From Desulfocapsa sp. (GTDB taxonomy: Bacteria > Desulfobacterota > Desulfobulbia > Desulfobulbales > Desulfocapsaceae), in the NCBI GenBank assembly GCA_029934915.1, contig JAOZLI010000020.1, forward strand, positions 1 to 18,562: a stretch of 18,562 nucleotides of DNA. The letters are read 5' to 3'. This document shows positions 3,123 through 18,476 of the stretch, in pieces (the stretch's first letter is position 1; the number at the start of each line of letters is the position of its first letter). The notes beneath the pieces were generated by a model, which was not told the DNA's origin, did no database searches, and saw nothing but the letters and a program-made list of their open reading frames with translations. The position numbers were made by a program, and so were the translations under genes.

Positions 3123-4127
3123 TTAATTACTCACCATCGCTGGAGTAAGCTCTGAAAAGGAGACGATTCTACCACCGTTACTCTCCACAAAGACCTGAGC
3201 ATCTTTCTTGATTTTAAAAGGAAGTGCCTCCATCCCCATGGGGCCGTGAACTTTTGAACCAACAACATAGTAGGGACCAAAGGCTGATTCGTACATTCCA
3301 CCTGGAAAAAGAGTGATCCATGCCATTTTAGTCATTACCGGTTTCTTCATGTATCTTGTGGGCTCAGCATTGAAATGAACAAAACAGCTAGTTGAGCAGA
3401 AATGCAGTGTTTCTCCACTCTTGGTCCAAATTTGAGCATTATGTTTCGGATATCTTGCTGGATACATACCACAAACAACACAGCTATCTTTCTCCGTCGG
3501 ATCCTTAATTTTTCCGGTTTTCTTCCGTTTTTTATCAATCATCATTCTGGACTTGGGTAACTCCAGAGTGGCAGCATTGAGGGCACCATTAAAGTCGCTG
3601 ATCTTCCCGCCATAATCGGCCACAAACTTCTCAGCCGCCTGTTTATCCGCAAAGGCTATCTTTGAGTTCATGGTCATGGTTCCTTTGGCTGAAGACCCAA
3701 TGACGTAAACAGCCTTCTCGACAGGAATTATCGTATCCGGATCAAGGTAGACAGCCACCTGAGCAGCAGTTGGTTGAGTTCCGGAATTGACCGCCTTGTC
3801 GGCCATACAGCGGATAGAACATGTTGTAAAATCCCCTTCGGGATGCGTAAAAGAGTGCCTGGTTCGAGCCCACATATTAATCATCATGCCACAGTTAGGA
3901 CATCGTTTGGTTTTACTGTACATCTTGGGCTTCATCATCGGATGTTCAACAGCAGGCCTTTTTGGGTCTCCCTGCATCATCATATGACTGCCCCCCCCCC
4001 TTTTCTTGCCATTCTGTTCCATGGCTGAGGTGACACTCACACTTAGACATGTTAGAAAAATAATGACCACAACAGTGCTCAGCAGTCCACTTCCAATACC
4101 ATTTTTTGTATCCCTTCGACTATGCAT
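3123..4127 (-). CDS. Exported protein with two tandem NosL domains
   Basis: This predicted secreted or membrane-anchored protein has an N-terminal hydrophobic segment with a likely signal-peptidase site near VTSA (about residue 35 from the ATG at 4127). Two homologous halves follow, each with a CxxCGM motif and a second cysteine pair: CPNCGMM with CSIRC, then CVVCGM with CSTSC. Each half also has a GTMTM- or GPMGMEA-type methionine-rich strand and a conserved segment ending in YGG or NGG. NosL proteins bind Cu(I) and help metallate nitrous-oxide reductase. No nosZ, nosD, nosF or nosY is nearby, so a general copper- or metal-binding role is more likely here. I chose ATG 4127 because GGGGA lies five bases upstream; GTG 4139 and ATG 4130 are in-frame alternatives. 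The coding strand has ten consecutive G just after the signal peptide. The gene is convergent with bamD and downstream of regA. Confidence 0.8.
   Translation of the reverse strand: MHSRRDTKNGIGSGLLSTVVVIIFLTCLSVSVTSAMEQNGKKRGGGSHMMMQGDPKRPAVEHPMMKPKMYSKTKRCPNCGMMINMWARTRHSFTHPEGDFTTCSIRCMADKAVNSGTQPTAAQVAVYLDPDTIIPVEKAVYVIGSSAKGTMTMNSKIAFADKQAAEKFVADYGGKISDFNGALNAATLELPKSRMMIDKKRKKTGKIKDPTEKDSCVVCGMYPARYPKHNAQIWTKSGETLHFCSTSCFVHFNAEPTRYMKKPVMTKMAWITLFPGGMYESAFGPYYVVGSKVHGPMGMEALPFKIKKDAQVFVESNGGRIVSFSELTPAMVSN
3991..4000. repeat. Homopolymer tract, ten C on plus (ten G in the coding strand of the NosL-like gene)
   Basis: The run covers the end of an Arg codon, two Gly codons and part of a third, between the signal peptide and the first NosL domain. 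Losing one G brings a TGA within about seven codons; gaining one brings a TGA after about 19 codons. At this length the tract is prone to slipped-strand mispairing, as known for phase-variable genes. Confidence 0.85.
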
Positions 4128-4146
4128 CATCTTCCCCACATAAAAA

Positions 4147-4261: not shown

Positions 4262-4792
4262 TCATTTCGGCGCATACTTATAGAGTTTTCGCTGCAGTGT
4301 TCTTCTGTGAATGCCCAGTTTTTTTGCAGCACAGCTGATATTATCATCGCAATCCGTCAAAACCCTTTGAATATGCTCCCATTCTACTCTGGCCAAAGAT
4401 GGTGGTAGAAGTTCTTCCTGCGAAAAGTCTGGTTCCCGGTCTGTATCGTCACCAAATGCTATGATAATTTCATCAACATCCGCCGGCTTGGCAAGATAGG
4501 AAACAGCACCCAACTTAATTGCCTCTGTTGCAGTGGCAATGGAGCCATAACCGGTCAGTACCACAATGCTCAACTCCGGTACTCTTTTCAAAGCATCTTT
4601 AAGAAGCTGCAAACCGCTTTTCCCTGGCATTTTCAGATCAAACACTGCCAGGAGTGGTTGATGCTCCTCAATAACGTCCATGGCTTCGTCATAACTAGAG
4701 GCTATATAGGTGGCATACCCTCTGCGAATAAATGCACGGTTCATACGATCCAGAAAAAACTGTTCATCATCCACCAGTAGAATCTTTTCCAT
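4262..4792 (-). CDS. regA: RegA/PrrA/ActR-type redox response regulator
   Basis: This 176-residue regulator has a receiver domain (residues 1-115) with acidic pocket D8-D9, phospho-acceptor D52 in FDLKMPG, T80 and K102. A short linker leads to a Fis-type helix-turn-helix (about 150-176). The recognition helix HRRTLQRKL with terminal YAPK is the hallmark of RegA/PrrA/ActR regulators, which control respiration, carbon and nitrogen fixation and photosynthesis in response to redox state. The ATG is preceded by GGAG six bases upstream. It lies 35 bases downstream of its cognate kinase gene in the same operon. It is slightly shorter than the roughly 184 residues typical of alphaproteobacterial RegA. 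Downstream, AAGGTG/CACCTT (4239-4244/4250-4255) could form a weak hairpin, with no good T run. The family assignment is strong; the target genes here are unknown. Confidence 0.88.
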   Translation of the reverse strand: MEKILLVDDEQFFLDRMNRAFIRRGYATYIASSYDEAMDVIEEHQPLLAVFDLKMPGKSGLQLLKDALKRVPELSIVVLTGYGSIATATEAIKLGAVSYLAKPADVDEIIIAFGDDTDREPDFSQEELLPPSLARVEWEHIQRVLTDCDDNISCAAKKLGIHRRTLQRKLYKYAPK

Positions 4793-4827
4793 TTACTTCT
4801 CCATTAGGCGCTGAAGGCAGTTACCAT

Positions 4828-6171
4828 TTATGCTTCATAAGCCAGCATATCACATGGCAAGGCCATAACTACAGTGGTTCCCTGTCCCGGTTCAGATACA
4901 ATTTCCAGACTCCCATGAAACTGCTCAGCCAGAGTTTTAGCAAGAAAAAGCCCCAAGCCCAGGCCAGACTCTTTTGTGGTAAAGAATGGAGTGATCACAA
5001 GTTCTTTGTCTCCCTCCTCGATTCCCAAGCCATGATCAACGATTTTAATACCTAAAGTGTCTCCCGTGATAAACCATTTCATGACCACCTCGGAATGATC
5101 ATCTGACGCTTCAAGCCCATTGATTAAAAGCCCCTTTACAGTTCGACACACCGAACGTAAAGGAACACGAATCGTACCGATTTGCGGAGCGATATCAACT
5201 TGAACACGACGACGTTGCCCATCACTCAGTTCCTGAAGAATCTGGGAAACGACATCTTTTACTGAGTATCGTTGAATATCTTCTCCCAGGTGCTCTCCTG
5301 CACCTGCGGCCATTTGATACAGTATTTCTTTACAATCAGTAATCTGTTTTCTGATCAGCCGGGCATCCTCAAGAAGCTCGGCACTGCTGCCCTGTTCCTT
5401 GAGAGTATGGATCATCTCATTGGAGACCACCGCTACGGTACTCAGAGGCGTGGATAGTTCATGGGCAGCTCCTGCCGCCAAAGTGGTAAGCGAAGAAAGT
5501 TTTTCATTACGAGCCTCTTCTTTTTCGAGATCCTGCAGTATCGTACGATGTGCCGCCAGCGCTTTTTGGATTTTACTGACAAAAAAGACAATAAAAAAAG
5601 ACGTTATCACAAAGGCCACCCACATTCCCTGGAGGTGGAGTTCAAAAGATCCTGGGAGGCCACCTATGAAATGACATTCTGCCAGATCAGCTAAATGTGC
5701 GGCACCTGATAGGTCGGTAATCACAGGAGGAGGGAAGTAAAAGAGTAGTCCATAACAGAGCAGGGTCGTAATGGTCAGAATCCATGAACAGACTTCCCGA
5801 AGAATAATAGCCCCTAATACAATATGCAGTAAGTAGAGAAAAACAAAAGGATTCATGACCCCGCCAGTTACATACAGCAAAACGGTGAGAAAGATCGTAT
5901 CAAGAAGGAGCATCGCCAGGATAACCTCGTTGGAGATCACCTTATTCGCCTTCTGACGAGAATGGAGATAGAAATTGGATAGCACTTCAAAAAAAATGAT
6001 AAATGCAACTAGAAAACCGGGCACCTGGATATCCAGCAAGAGGACAACCGCAATAATAAGTATTGCCTGGCAGAGTATTTCCCCCCAACGCAGGGCAAGC
6101 AACCAGGGAATAGCCACATCGGCATTTTCTTTTTCCGGATAGAAAACAGATTTTATTTCTGAGAGTTTCAT
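4828..6171 (-). CDS. regB: RegB/PrrB-type redox sensor histidine kinase
   Basis: This membrane sensor kinase phosphorylates the adjacent RegA. Residues here are numbered from the longest reading frame (GTG at 6288). About six hydrophobic segments lie between 60 and 240. GGVMNPF (142-148) is the RegB heptapeptide linked to ubiquinone sensing. H276 lies in the H-box HELSTPLST. C319, in ITDCKEIL, aligns with the redox-active cysteine of Rhodobacter RegB. The ATPase domain has an N-box (LLINGLEAS, N390), D418 in DHGLGI, and GLGLGL (442-447). I prefer ATG 6171 because it leaves about 20 residues before the first membrane segment, as in the family. The 39-residue extension has no family likeness and its GTG touches an inverted repeat. 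However, GTG 6288 has a GGAAAG nine bases upstream and ATG 6171 has no ribosome site, so the start remains open. Confidence 0.87.
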   Translation of the reverse strand: MKLSEIKSVFYPEKENADVAIPWLLALRWGEILCQAILIIAVVLLLDIQVPGFLVAFIIFFEVLSNFYLHSRQKANKVISNEVILAMLLLDTIFLTVLLYVTGGVMNPFVFLYLLHIVLGAIILREVCSWILTITTLLCYGLLFYFPPPVITDLSGAAHLADLAECHFIGGLPGSFELHLQGMWVAFVITSFFIVFFVSKIQKALAAHRTILQDLEKEEARNEKLSSLTTLAAGAAHELSTPLSTVAVVSNEMIHTLKEQGSSAELLEDARLIRKQITDCKEILYQMAAGAGEHLGEDIQRYSVKDVVSQILQELSDGQRRRVQVDIAPQIGTIRVPLRSVCRTVKGLLINGLEASDDHSEVVMKWFITGDTLGIKIVDHGLGIEEGDKELVITPFFTTKESGLGLGLFLAKTLAEQFHGSLEIVSEPGQGTTVVMALPCDMLAYEA

Positions 6172-6274
6172 GAGCTGATATCTATTACAAAATCCAAAGG
6201 GATTCAAAACAAATCGATTAAGCTTTCCTGGAGCAGGTTTACACAACCAGGCCACCCGAGAGGCATTGCACGTG

Positions 6275-6295
6275 CGACAATATGCCACATTGTCG
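6275..6295. promoter_or_regulatory. Inverted repeat CGACAAT-N7-ATTGTCG upstream of regB
   Basis: Perfect 7-bp arms (6275-6281 and 6289-6295) lie in the divergent gap between regB and the small HTH gene, if regB starts at 6171. The left side reads GCGACA, which resembles one half of published RegA/RegR/PrrA sites, but the spacing differs from those consensus sequences. An autoregulatory site is a guess. Confidence 0.35.
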
Positions 6296-14630: not shown

Positions 14631-14749
14631 TGCGGCACTGGTAAACGTTTACCAGTACCGCAGATTTGTTCATTTTGAATTGCGTAGCATATGCAGTTAT
14701 ATGTGAGCGAGTCGAAATGGACAAATATGCGGCACTGGTGAACGTTTAC
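14631..14749. repeat. Nested palindromic element between convergent genes (possible bidirectional terminator)
   Basis: Positions 14631-14662 form a 32-bp palindrome with 16-base arms and one mismatch, centred on GTAAACGTTTAC. A larger inverted repeat spans 14641-14678 and 14712-14749, with 33 of 38 positions identical. Three of the five differences become G-U pairs in a plus-strand RNA. Its centre holds CATAT/ATATG. Equivalently, 24 bases at 14629-14652 recur as a direct repeat at 14726-14749 with one change. The right end supplies the TAA stop of the neighbouring minus-strand gene. Confidence 0.75.
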
Positions 14750-15798
14750 TCTTCACCAGCTTCATCTACTCGCTTAATCCCTTCCATCAAAAGCCCCATA
14801 AAATCACCAATCTCTGCAGCTTTCATCTCTTCTGGAGTGAGTCCCGTTGTAAATGTATAGCGACCTTCTTTCTCTTTTAACATGGAGAAAATTGCGAACT
14901 GATTGCGCTCCTCTCCGTATTGTGCATTTATGACACACCCCTCACGAAAAGAAACCATGGCACTTCCCCTGGGCAGCTCCAGAGAAAGAACACCTGTTTT
15001 GCTGTGCATATGAAAAATCTGAAACAACTCAGCGGGCGGCATCTCACGAACCCAGCCACTCATACAGGCATCAAATGTTTCAAAATGACTGGCATTAGAG
15101 AGACTTAAGCGTTGCACTAATACTTTGGCCATAAAAAGTTGCAATTCAGGAATTCGATCAATTAATCGACAAAATGCATCACCGGCAATGGATAAAACTT
15201 CCACCTCGGTAACTGTTCGAACATCTGCTCCTGCAACCTCATTACCAAGATAACTCATTTCGCCACAAATATCGCCGGCCCCCAGAGTTGCAATGGCAAG
15301 GGAACTGTCACCAACGACAAGCTCTCCGCTAAGAATAAGATACAAATACAAAGAACTCTGTCCTTTTAGAATAAGCCTTGAATCAGCAGGCAATTTTTCT
15401 TTTCTAAAACAACGAACGGCTCTCGTAAGTTCAGACTCAGGAATTGCTTTGATTAAGGGAAAATCACGAATCTCTCCCAGTAACGCTTCTCCTTCAGCAT
15501 CCAGAGTCTGATTGTCTTCGATAAGACCATCTTTTTTCGCATCACTCTCCGAAATACAGACAAACTTAATAAGACCTGTGCAGCCACTACAACTGTAAAG
15601 TTCTTCTTCACTTTCGGCATCAGTACCACCAAGGTGGTCAAACAAAAGCTTCGTCATCTCCCGTACCAGGATCAAACACGTCGCCTTGTTTTCCGGAACG
15701 GTCAGAGCCTTTTCGGAAAGTATCAACAATTCTCCTTTTTTATACAGAGGACAATTGTTAACCATTGTGACTTTATAATAGAGTTTAAGAAAATTCAT
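14746..15798 (-). CDS. Cyclic-nucleotide-binding-like and DUF4388 (PATAN) signalling protein
   Basis: This 350-residue soluble protein has three parts. Residues 1-85 are a cysteine-containing domain (NNCPLYKKGE at 14-23, YSCSGCTG at 68-75) that I cannot name firmly; a TIGR04076-like domain is possible. Residues 113-230 are a CRP-type cyclic-nucleotide-binding fold, with GDICGEMSYLG (175-185) as the phosphate-binding cassette. The arginine that contacts the cyclic phosphate in CRP (R82) aligns with A189, so classical cAMP binding is doubtful. Residues 248-340 are a DUF4388 domain (PPAELFQIFHMHSKTGVLSL, then FREGCVINAQYG), common in deltaproteobacterial signalling proteins. There is no DNA-binding domain. 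It is divergent from the E2-like gene and its stop lies inside the palindromic element. The start has no ribosome site; M12 is an alternative. Confidence 0.82.
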   Translation of the reverse strand: MNFLKLYYKVTMVNNCPLYKKGELLILSEKALTVPENKATCLILVREMTKLLFDHLGGTDAESEEELYSCSGCTGLIKFVCISESDAKKDGLIEDNQTLDAEGEALLGEIRDFPLIKAIPESELTRAVRCFRKEKLPADSRLILKGQSSLYLYLILSGELVVGDSSLAIATLGAGDICGEMSYLGNEVAGADVRTVTEVEVLSIAGDAFCRLIDRIPELQLFMAKVLVQRLSLSNASHFETFDACMSGWVREMPPAELFQIFHMHSKTGVLSLELPRGSAMVSFREGCVINAQYGEERNQFAIFSMLKEKEGRYTFTTGLTPEEMKAAEIGDFMGLLMEGIKRVDEAGEE

Positions 15799-16013
15799 TA
15801 CGTTATTAATCTATCACAAATATCCGTCAGTTGAATAAAAAAATACACTTTTCCGCAATAAAAGTGATAAATATTAACAAATGTTTTGTTTTCACGAAAC
15901 TTACTGCTATACTTCAATTATTGATCATGTTCCTCACCCATAGCAGTCTGTTAACTTATGAATTTGACAATTAGGACTTTTTTTTATTACAGCCTCTCAG
16001 CAGACAAATATAT
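15799..16013. promoter_or_regulatory. Divergent promoter region with an inverted repeat
   Basis: This AT-rich 215-base gap serves both the cNMP/DUF4388 gene (minus) and the E2-like gene (plus). CACTTTT (15846-15852) and AAAAGTG (15860-15866) form a perfect 7-bp inverted repeat around seven bases, a possible operator. Plus-strand promoter candidates are TTGTTT (15886-15891) with TATACT (15908-15913) at 16 bases, and a consensus TTGACA (15964-15969) with TATTAC (15985-15990) at a short 15 bases. No small gene is seen. Confidence 0.4.
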
Positions 16014-18476
16014 ATGAACACAACCATCAACCACCTTGAAGAAATTGCCCAGGAAATCGAAGGGTATTTTGCCTCAGTGCCTGGCATCACAGTTACCCCC
16101 GGTGAGGGTTCACCCCCAGAGCAGTATACTATCACGTACAATATCACCGGGGCATGTAAGGATGATAGTGGCGTAATTTCGACCTGCGAGAAACACGTAA
16201 TCTCCATTTCTTTACCCTTTGGGTTCCCCCATTTCCCACCGAACTGCCTCCCCGAAAGTAATACCTTTCACCCTGATTTCGACTCTTCCGCCATTTGTAT
16301 TGGCGAAGCCTGGGACGAATCCAAATCAGTTGTTGAGCTGATTCTCTATATTGGTCGCATGATCGCCGGTCAAGTTTATTCCTCTGCCAATGCTTTTAAT
16401 GAGGAAGCAGCTGCCTGGTACCTAACAAACAGTAAACAGCTCCCATTTGACACCACCGCATTTAAACAAATAGATAGCAACGACGCACCCTCAATTGAGG
16501 AAGCCATAGAAGACGATGTCCAATTTGATAATATCGACACTTTGGATGACGCCGATTTTGATCAGTCTTTTTCTCTTGAAGAGGATGATTCTGATGGTTC
16601 TGATGAATCGACACCCGACATTAAAAGACTACAAGGTATGGCTGCAGACAAACGCTTCTATACTCTTATCCGTGAAATACAAGATATACCTGACGACTTC
16701 GAAGAACGCTCAATACTTGAATCACAGGCACAAGGTGCTATAGATATCAGCCAAAATCTCTTTCGAGAAGCTGAAGAGCTTGAGTTTAACGGTAAGCAGA
16801 AAGAAGCACTTGAAAAGCTTTATACCATTGAAGATCTTGTCTCTGATTACCCGTCACTTGATGAAGCACAAGCCCGGACCAGACAGGCCGTTGAGCTTCT
16901 TGGTGACTGGGTGAATGGAGAAGAAGAAGAATATGAGGGGACGGAAACTGACGCTAATCCTCCACCAGTTGATGAATCAAGCCCACAATCAAATCAAGAG
17001 GCCAAAAGGCAGAGAAAAGCAAATCGTACTTTTTATGAAGAAAAATCGGGTATCAGCCGTAAAGGAATTTATTCTGCATTTGCCATCGGCCTCGTTGCCC
17101 TTGGAGGAACACTTGTCTTCTCGTTTTTTTCCCTCAGCTCAAACCTGAAAAAGGCCGACATAAAATATACTGAATGTGAAACCCTGCTCGACAGTAATAA
17201 TTTTCAAAAGGCAGAAAAGGCATGTGAGAAAGCGCTGGATCTTCTTTCGGAAGTAAAAATAGTAAAACAGAACACAAAAACACAAATTTCCAGCAAAATC
17301 CATGTTCTCCTTGACTCACCAAAGCTGAAGCAGGGATTAGCAGGTAATATTATGTTCGAGGGGCAATATGTTTCCACGTCCACCAAGGAACGTATTCTGA
17401 ATTTCAAGGAAGCGAAAGAAAATGGGGATATCTTTTACAAACAGGAACGATGGGGCGAAGCGACTCACAGTTACAGCAAAGCTCTGGATTTGGCAAAAAA
17501 ACCCAAGGGGATAGACACCAGCGCACTTGCCGATATTAGGAACAAATTACCACGTGCACAATTTAATGGACTGAAACTGGCCGGTGAAAAGGCTCTTGCA
17601 GCCTCTGACTGGGGTGATGCTGCGGACTACTTTGGAAAAGCATTAGCTCTCGCCAAAAAGGATCCCAACGTTCTGCCCAATGATATTACACGCCTGGAAC
17701 GCCTTTCCAGACGAGCTGAGTTTAACGCCTCACGCGACCGTGGACACTTTGCCTTCGACCGTAAAGAATGGGAAACAGCTCTCAAGCACTATCTGCGCGC
17801 ATTGAACCTTGCGAAAAGATATTCTCTGGCCGATGGCCCTACAACTTCAAGTCTCAATGAGAACATCGCCAGAACAAAAATTTATAATGCCATCGAAAAA
17901 GGCAAAAGGGCCTTCACCGCCTCCCAATGGGACGAAGTAATAGCCCAGTACGAAACGGCCATTGTTCTGCTAAAAGAAAACTCTACGCTTCTCAGTAGCA
18001 TAAACACTGTGAAGAGTGGAGATAAACTTTCTCGCATTATGCTGCATGTAGCTATAATACAAGACAAACAGCAACTTGCACAATTCCTCAAAGACGAAGA
18101 CTACAAGGCTGCCGTAAATAAACTGCTGGAGATTAAAGAGACGATTACAGCAAGTCAGTTTGCTGACCAAACAGACTTTATGGAGATCTTGGCAGAGGTT
18201 TCAATACAGATTGAAGAGCACCAGAAGAAGTTACAAATCAGTGACCAAATAAGCTACCTGACCGACAACTTTGAAAAACTATTTCTCAAGCACTATCCTG
18301 CAGCATCCGGTTCAGTACTGAGCACACCCAAGGTTGAATATACTAAAAACATTGGCAACGACTTGCTGTTCAGAATACAATGTACTGAAAAATCTGGTGG
18401 ACGCCCTCTTCGCTTACAGATGGATTACCTCTATTCTCCCGCCAATGGCTCATGGAAATTTTATAGTGAGGAATAA
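16014..18476 (+). CDS. E2 ubiquitin-conjugating-like domain fused to a membrane segment and TPR-like repeats
   Basis: The product has 820 residues. Residues 1-140 match the E2 (UBC) fold: strand SISLPFGFPHFPP (64-76), HPD at 86-88 in place of the HPN motif, a putative catalytic C95 in ICIGEAW, then helix ELILYIGRMI and the terminal FNEEAAAWY seen in E2 proteins. An acidic linker (about 157-200) and helical repeats (205-297) follow. A basic stretch (KRQRKANR, 331-338) precedes one membrane segment (about 351-372). By the positive-inside rule the E2 part is cytoplasmic and residues 375-820 are periplasmic. That outer part has TPR-like units, for example at 466-495, 521-550, 573-604 and 627-657, and a small C-terminal domain (about 745-820). 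No E1, ubiquitin-like or JAB gene is adjacent. The ATG has no clear ribosome site. Its substrate and biological role are unknown. Confidence 0.85.
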   Translation: MNTTINHLEEIAQEIEGYFASVPGITVTPGEGSPPEQYTITYNITGACKDDSGVISTCEKHVISISLPFGFPHFPPNCLPESNTFHPDFDSSAICIGEAWDESKSVVELILYIGRMIAGQVYSSANAFNEEAAAWYLTNSKQLPFDTTAFKQIDSNDAPSIEEAIEDDVQFDNIDTLDDADFDQSFSLEEDDSDGSDESTPDIKRLQGMAADKRFYTLIREIQDIPDDFEERSILESQAQGAIDISQNLFREAEELEFNGKQKEALEKLYTIEDLVSDYPSLDEAQARTRQAVELLGDWVNGEEEEYEGTETDANPPPVDESSPQSNQEAKRQRKANRTFYEEKSGISRKGIYSAFAIGLVALGGTLVFSFFSLSSNLKKADIKYTECETLLDSNNFQKAEKACEKALDLLSEVKIVKQNTKTQISSKIHVLLDSPKLKQGLAGNIMFEGQYVSTSTKERILNFKEAKENGDIFYKQERWGEATHSYSKALDLAKKPKGIDTSALADIRNKLPRAQFNGLKLAGEKALAASDWGDAADYFGKALALAKKDPNVLPNDITRLERLSRRAEFNASRDRGHFAFDRKEWETALKHYLRALNLAKRYSLADGPTTSSLNENIARTKIYNAIEKGKRAFTASQWDEVIAQYETAIVLLKENSTLLSSINTVKSGDKLSRIMLHVAIIQDKQQLAQFLKDEDYKAAVNKLLEIKETITASQFADQTDFMEILAEVSIQIEEHQKKLQISDQISYLTDNFEKLFLKHYPAASGSVLSTPKVEYTKNIGNDLLFRIQCTEKSGGRPLRLQMDYLYSPANGSWKFYSEE

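Follow-up and report, generated by a model that had tools for sequence, protein, structure and literature searches.

A membrane protein of Desulfocapsa sp., encoded by an inherited chromosomal gene that a group of sulphur-cycling bacteria shares, has an inner end folded like a ubiquitin-conjugating enzyme (E2), fused to a membrane segment and repeats, and is probably a single-pass inner-membrane scaffold whose UEV-like cytoplasmic head docks clients, not an enzyme; many relatives lack the catalytic residue, which makes a docking module likelier. It would exemplify a bacterial case in which a ubiquitin-type E2 domain left its conjugation pathway and became a fixed, chromosomally encoded module anchored in the membrane; the order concerned includes the cable bacteria. 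The window (the whole stretch of DNA analysed, 18,562 nucleotides) is an entire contig, and anything said of positions past 18562 is drawn from relatives. The features of the protein and of its divergently encoded neighbour are as follows.

16014..16439, + strand: E2/UBC-fold domain, amino acids 1-142, presumably on the cytoplasmic side
16269..16277, + strand: HPD motif, amino acids 86-88, replacing the HPN of active E2s
16296..16298, + strand: C95, where E2s have the catalytic cysteine; relatives show C, R, K, S, H, Y or A
16395..16421, + strand: FNEEAAAWY, beginning of the last E2 helix (130-138 in the model)
16467..16607, + strand: acidic disordered linker, amino acids 152-198 (pLDDT < 50)
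16620..16913, + strand: pre-membrane helices, amino acids 203-300, in the predicted structure
17073..17144, + strand: single membrane segment, about amino acids 354-377, from hydropathy and a modelled helix (354-393)
17160..18293, + strand: TPR solenoid, amino acids 383-760, presumably periplasmic, from Pfam, the model and Foldseek
18330..18464, + strand: C-terminal beta domain of four strands, amino acids 773-817, in the predicted structure
15799..16013, no strand: intergenic region common to the divergent pair
14746..15798, - strand: divergent partner gene (CPLY...CxGCxGLIKF, cNMP-binding and DUF4388 domains), from Pfam, conserved neighbourhood and co-occurrence
15511-15795, - strand: CPLY...CxGCxGLIKF domain of the partner
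15154-15399, - strand: cNMP-binding domain of the partner (Pfam)
14758-15057, - strand: DUF4388 of the partner (Pfam)

The head was modelled as an ordinary UBC fold, and all 50 matches listed in a structure search with it were E2s, on which ground an RWD fold was rejected. The initial annotation had recognised an E2 layout, with a cysteine at the catalytic place, on a protein continuing into a membrane segment and repeats, and this observation is confirmed in its fold, in C95 and in the architecture. Pfam UQ_con scores the window protein at 18.4 bits against a cut-off of 27, and exceeds the cut-off in 10 of 16 genomes, in three of these through a protein other than the orthologue. Among the 120 homologues listed out of 344, some are named 'ubiquitin-protein ligase' by JGI, which is probably misleading for such proteins. 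The membrane segment corresponds to a Kyte-Doolittle maximum of 2.07 at amino acid 356 (next best in the protein, 1.10), Pfam TPRs cover amino acids 383-621 and Foldseek also returns TPR matches for the solenoid; no identity was found for the C-terminal beta domain. Presumably, the E2 head is cytoplasmic and the TPR/beta part periplasmic.

The active site sets the family apart from active E2s. Position 88 shows Asp without exception in the 142 rows bearing a letter (alignment including duplicates), so that HPD stands where active E2s have HPN, and two divergent members of family f6 (L143 and L144) have HPA together with Ala at site 95. A first 38-row alignment, in which H86, P87, D88, W100 and N129 are unvarying, has at site 95 C in 33 rows, S in two, and T, F and N in one each. 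Among 114 distinct domain sequences, fragments included, the residues are C73 S2 R1 Y1 H1 in the group labelled f1, C6 K4 R1 in f13 (hence K/R in 5 of 11), C1 in f15 and R in 24/24 of f6; the named loci L002-L076 were all put in f1 by default, and L048 (Desulfobulbus sp. Tol-SR) at least may belong elsewhere. Some genomes occur twice (L072 = L130 and L074 = L131, with identical domains), and other fetched genomes may repeat named loci. Catalysis, which the initial annotation had envisaged, is not supported as the family function, given R, K, S, H, Y or A at the site in many orthologues or paralogues: the window protein has the cysteine, and many relatives, like UEVs, do not. A fold other than UBC, or loss of C95 throughout, had been named as what would make the domain a non-catalytic binding one; the fold is a true UBC fold, and C95 is missing in whole clades, yet not throughout. 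Fifteen residues (P68, F69, G70, P72, H73, F74, P76, P80, H86, P87, D88, W100, F128, A132 and W135) do not vary in either the 76 rows of an f1 set or the 24 rows of the Arg family, and hence the core and surface loops are retained and the nucleophile is not, which agrees with a binding domain. Within f1, C95 is retained in 71/76 sequences (rank 41 of 149 positions), which argues against free drift of the site there. The Cys, Ser, Tyr, His, Lys, Arg and Ala found at this position may offer a natural series for the transition from E2 to binding domain.

At least 344 homologues were found at E<=1e-3 (7996 scored from a larger set of candidates). The 75 loci in named genomes include Desulfocapsa, Desulfofustis, Desulforhopalus, Desulfopila and Desulfobulbaceae among their titles, partial proteins of cable bacteria (Candidatus Electrothrix) match too, and within the class 170 of 257 genomes have the gene; in an even draw over the phylum, 12/395 genomes match, 10 of them, the window's own included, within the same order. 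In the named loci the E2 gene lies between secDF-CxxCxxCC-HAD and KdsD/KpsF-like, metK, ahcY, birA and dsrAB genes (names beyond Pfam, from KdsD/KpsF-like to dsrAB, being assigned by reading), and the same flanking genes across these loci indicate an inherited chromosomal gene.

On the tree, the proteins of the order group together in a single clade, to which the standalone bacterial E2s are external (SH-aLRT 99, quick method). The tree was built from 88 hand-chosen rows with column 95 kept in, and 35 of its 85 inner branches are open; it omits L019, L071, L075, L076, L143-L145, the short repeat loci L077-L096, L137-L140 and L001, and roughly half of the Cys-bearing f1 rows. L141, L142, P0159, L074 and L068 are on long branches, and the standalone rows do not fall on one side of a branch (P0159 groups with L141). 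Cys is present in 7/7 standalone outgroup rows and so is most simply ancestral, with the root assumed and one standalone row falling with L141, and at least six Cys/not-Cys changes are required within the order (rows sampled, column 95 removed). Second, shorter copies with open frames of ~525-540 amino acids were seen at L131/L074 (G125), G126:C1:5607053 and G127:C1:298180; that of G125 has Arg at site 95 and no partner gene, and the main copy of G125 has Ser.

Of the 115 loci examined in the order, 90 have the partner gene divergently upstream of the E2 gene (f1 62/80, f6 17/23, f13 10/11, f15 1/1), always on the opposite strand and, where partner open reading frames were found, across a gap of 88-830 bases (median 246.5, start codons called mechanically); five of the 25 partner-less loci, all f1, are truncated by contig ends. 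It is the sole f1 neighbour retained in place in f13 and f15: the other f1/f6 neighbours are missing from their positions in both families, and the proteins of two of these clusters occur elsewhere in one and two f13 loci. A strong partner orthologue (a match of ~94 bits or more) is present in 125/170 genomes with the E2 gene versus 1/87 without it (Fisher p 4e-33, uncorrected for kinship), and its absence from the other 45 of the 170 makes the partner non-obligatory. Weaker partner paralogues are more widespread, with some match in 178/257 genomes. By these sequence comparisons, the E2 gene and its divergent partner likely form a functional unit, which puts a name to a candidate partner for an E2-like scaffold. 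For DUF4388/PATAN, no literature showing DUF4388 was found among the matches listed, and the contexts of the partner paralogues in six fetched stretches had no common theme; two of the six share, by reading, a molybdopterin oxidoreductase-like/Rieske-like/cytochrome-like set and an Hsp20-like pair.

We favour a scaffold as the probable function, operating as follows. The UBC head, related to an E2 family that has HPN and Cys in other bacteria, would serve as a binding module for which the cysteine is unneeded, also in members that bear it, and would dock a client in the cytoplasm, for which the CxGC-(cNMP)-DUF4388 protein of the divergent gene is the likeliest candidate; the membrane segment would then transmit the state of the head to the TPR/beta part, which may hold envelope proteins.

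The initial annotation had considered the E2-like protein unlike known bacterial E2 systems, which stands as regards E1, Ubl and JAB neighbours, none of which was recognised nearby, and not as regards close bacterial relatives, which exist as standalone E2s and in the L142 cluster. The standalone family numbers 2170 proteins at E<=1e-3 (the P0153 family, with the JGI name 'ubiquitin-protein ligase'; two named sources are Planctomycetes and Verrucomicrobia) and shares with the window's family a UBC domain of ~150 amino acids, the HPx...CIGD spacing and a similar C-terminal tail (YNxKSPLN against YSxxNAFN); standalone E2s are, however, single-domain proteins with HPN and Cys (nine rows read, with Cys in a C-I-G/A-D context), whereas the window's family has HPD, a dispensable Cys, a membrane segment and TPRs. 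The L142 cluster, outside the order, encodes a 361-amino-acid E2 related to the window domain (104 bits) and bearing Cys, which suggests the origin of the latter, but this E2 has no TPR match and sits beside ThiF, JAB, Prok-RING_1 and FHA genes. The order there (L142:3904-14217) is E1-JAB-FHA-RING-like-E2, followed by DnaJ-like zinc-ribbon, AAA ATPase and subtilisin-like genes (the last three by reading). L141, also outside the order, is a long repeat protein of 1054 amino acids that begins with an E2 head, in which Asp occupies the site (UQ_con above the cut-off, TPR matches below it, membrane segment read by eye); this combination of head, helical repeats and a non-Cys site supports docking, but L141 retains HPN and has other neighbours, with no partner gene found, and its very long branch leaves its placement on the tree unsure. 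Its gene (L141:5281-9918) adjoins, on the same strand, one for a 473-amino-acid TPR protein with a lipoprotein-like start.

UEVs are soluble proteins that act together with an active E2 as a pair, and in CBASS Cap2 an E2-type domain is linked to an E1. The window head resembles UEVs and the bacterial RWD-like Cys-less E2s in having a UBC-like fold that probably needs no catalytic Cys, and Cap2 and Bil in having an E2-type domain with a cysteine, but, unlike in the latter two, no E1/Ubl/JAB gene was recognised beside it. Cys-less E2/RWD-like domains are described in bacterial E1/E2/JAB operons (PMC1779556), an E2 domain (Cap2) in CBASS defence (PMC10097602), and Bil as E1/Ubl/JAB operons of phage defence (PMC11354881); the Cys-less E2s described in PMC1779556 sit in poly-Ubl/E1/JAB operons, unlike the window gene. 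No E2-membrane-TPR architecture was found in a literature search with most subscription journals outside its scope, and a published mention is possible.

We weighed whether Cys-bearing lineages retain an active E2 that would transfer an unrecognised ubiquitin-like protein, via a MoeB/ThiF-type E1, to envelope targets, with activity lost elsewhere. This we regard as unlikely. The Cys occupies exactly the catalytic position, has the same CIGD context and spacing as in standalone E2s, and is kept in most of f1 as given above; against this stand the Asp (Ala in two divergent rows) in place of the HPN asparagine, the whole clades that lack Cys and the ThiF and JAB results given below. The conserved neighbours (secDF, HAD, CxxCxxCC, cNMP-DUF4388, KdsD/KpsF-like, metK and ahcY) include no Prok-E2, Bil or CBASS partner and, in line with the initial annotation, no E1, Ub-like or JAB gene was recognised in the window neighbourhood, where a small Ub-like gene could escape notice. 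ThiF-fold proteins occur in 16/16 genomes searched, but as 12/14 control genomes have them too, this carries little information. Inspection of the window's genome for E1/ThiF genes, as had been proposed, gave four ThiF matches: a MoeB-like and a TcdA-like one, both under model cut-offs, a ThiS-ThiF fusion exceeding the cut-off of a thiamine ThiF model, and a weak fragment; a dedicated E1 was rejected on this basis. Prok-JAB had matches at E<=1e-3 in 10/16 genomes searched; the window's genome, which is 83% complete, and the single-contig genomes G117, G118, G126, G127 and G056 gave no match. In the five complete genomes with verified C95 (G113, G117, G126, G127 and G128), the only JAB matches are RadC proteins (one in G113, two in G128).

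Among the ThiF and JAB matches, the ThiS-ThiF fusion of the window's own genome (L201, G000:C509:1-3007) has a ThiS-like ubiquitin-fold domain. A second, distant E2-like protein, a 186-amino-acid open frame (L202, G078:C1:3167000-3186000; also L164, L187 and L195), lies in G078, a genome of the order, close to several Prok-JAB matches and a ThiF protein of 760 amino acids, and so belongs to a separate Ub-like cluster; in G077 (L174 and L188) an open frame of ~781 amino acids has Prok-JAB and ThiF matches, apparently a JAB-E1 fusion.

Equally doubtful is a pocket that was remodelled to hold a different ligand or carry out a different activity, built on H86, D88, D90 and H61 and tuned by residue 95. 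H86 and D88 are present in all 142 lettered rows, D90 in 141/143, H61 in 138/142 and W100 in 143 (duplicates included), and Arg is fixed in 24/24 of one family, but two divergent members have HPA, the model is an ordinary UBC fold, and neither an enzyme class nor a metal site suggested itself.

Less probable still is a cysteine that works solely where the partner has a cNMP domain, in an inner-membrane thioester relay or E2-type modification gated by cNMP, with a non-catalytic switch where Cys is replaced by Arg/Lys. The cNMP domain is present in 65/67 partners next to a Cys protein and missing from 20/23 next to a non-Cys protein; some genomes are repeated in these and the partner counts above, and the loci are hence not fully independent. 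This raw coupling hints that site 95 matters, but on the tree it comes down to three independent pairs, which are non-significant, and it is thus retained only as a lead.

A conjugation, defence or mobile-element device, of which the first had been suggested in the initial annotation, is highly improbable: E2 domains are found in mobile-element operons and CBASS (PMC1779556 and PMC10097602, respectively), but the identical chromosomal place over dozens of loci and a plasmid search with no match reject a conjugation or mobile device, largely through synteny, and PADLOC, with 0 families matched at E<=1, a defence system.

Elsewhere in the window, on the - strand, 3123-4139 encodes a protein of two similar NosL-like halves, each with C-x2-C and C-x3-C, and 4262-6288 a response regulator and a membrane histidine kinase resembling the RegA/RegB redox pair (both by reading).
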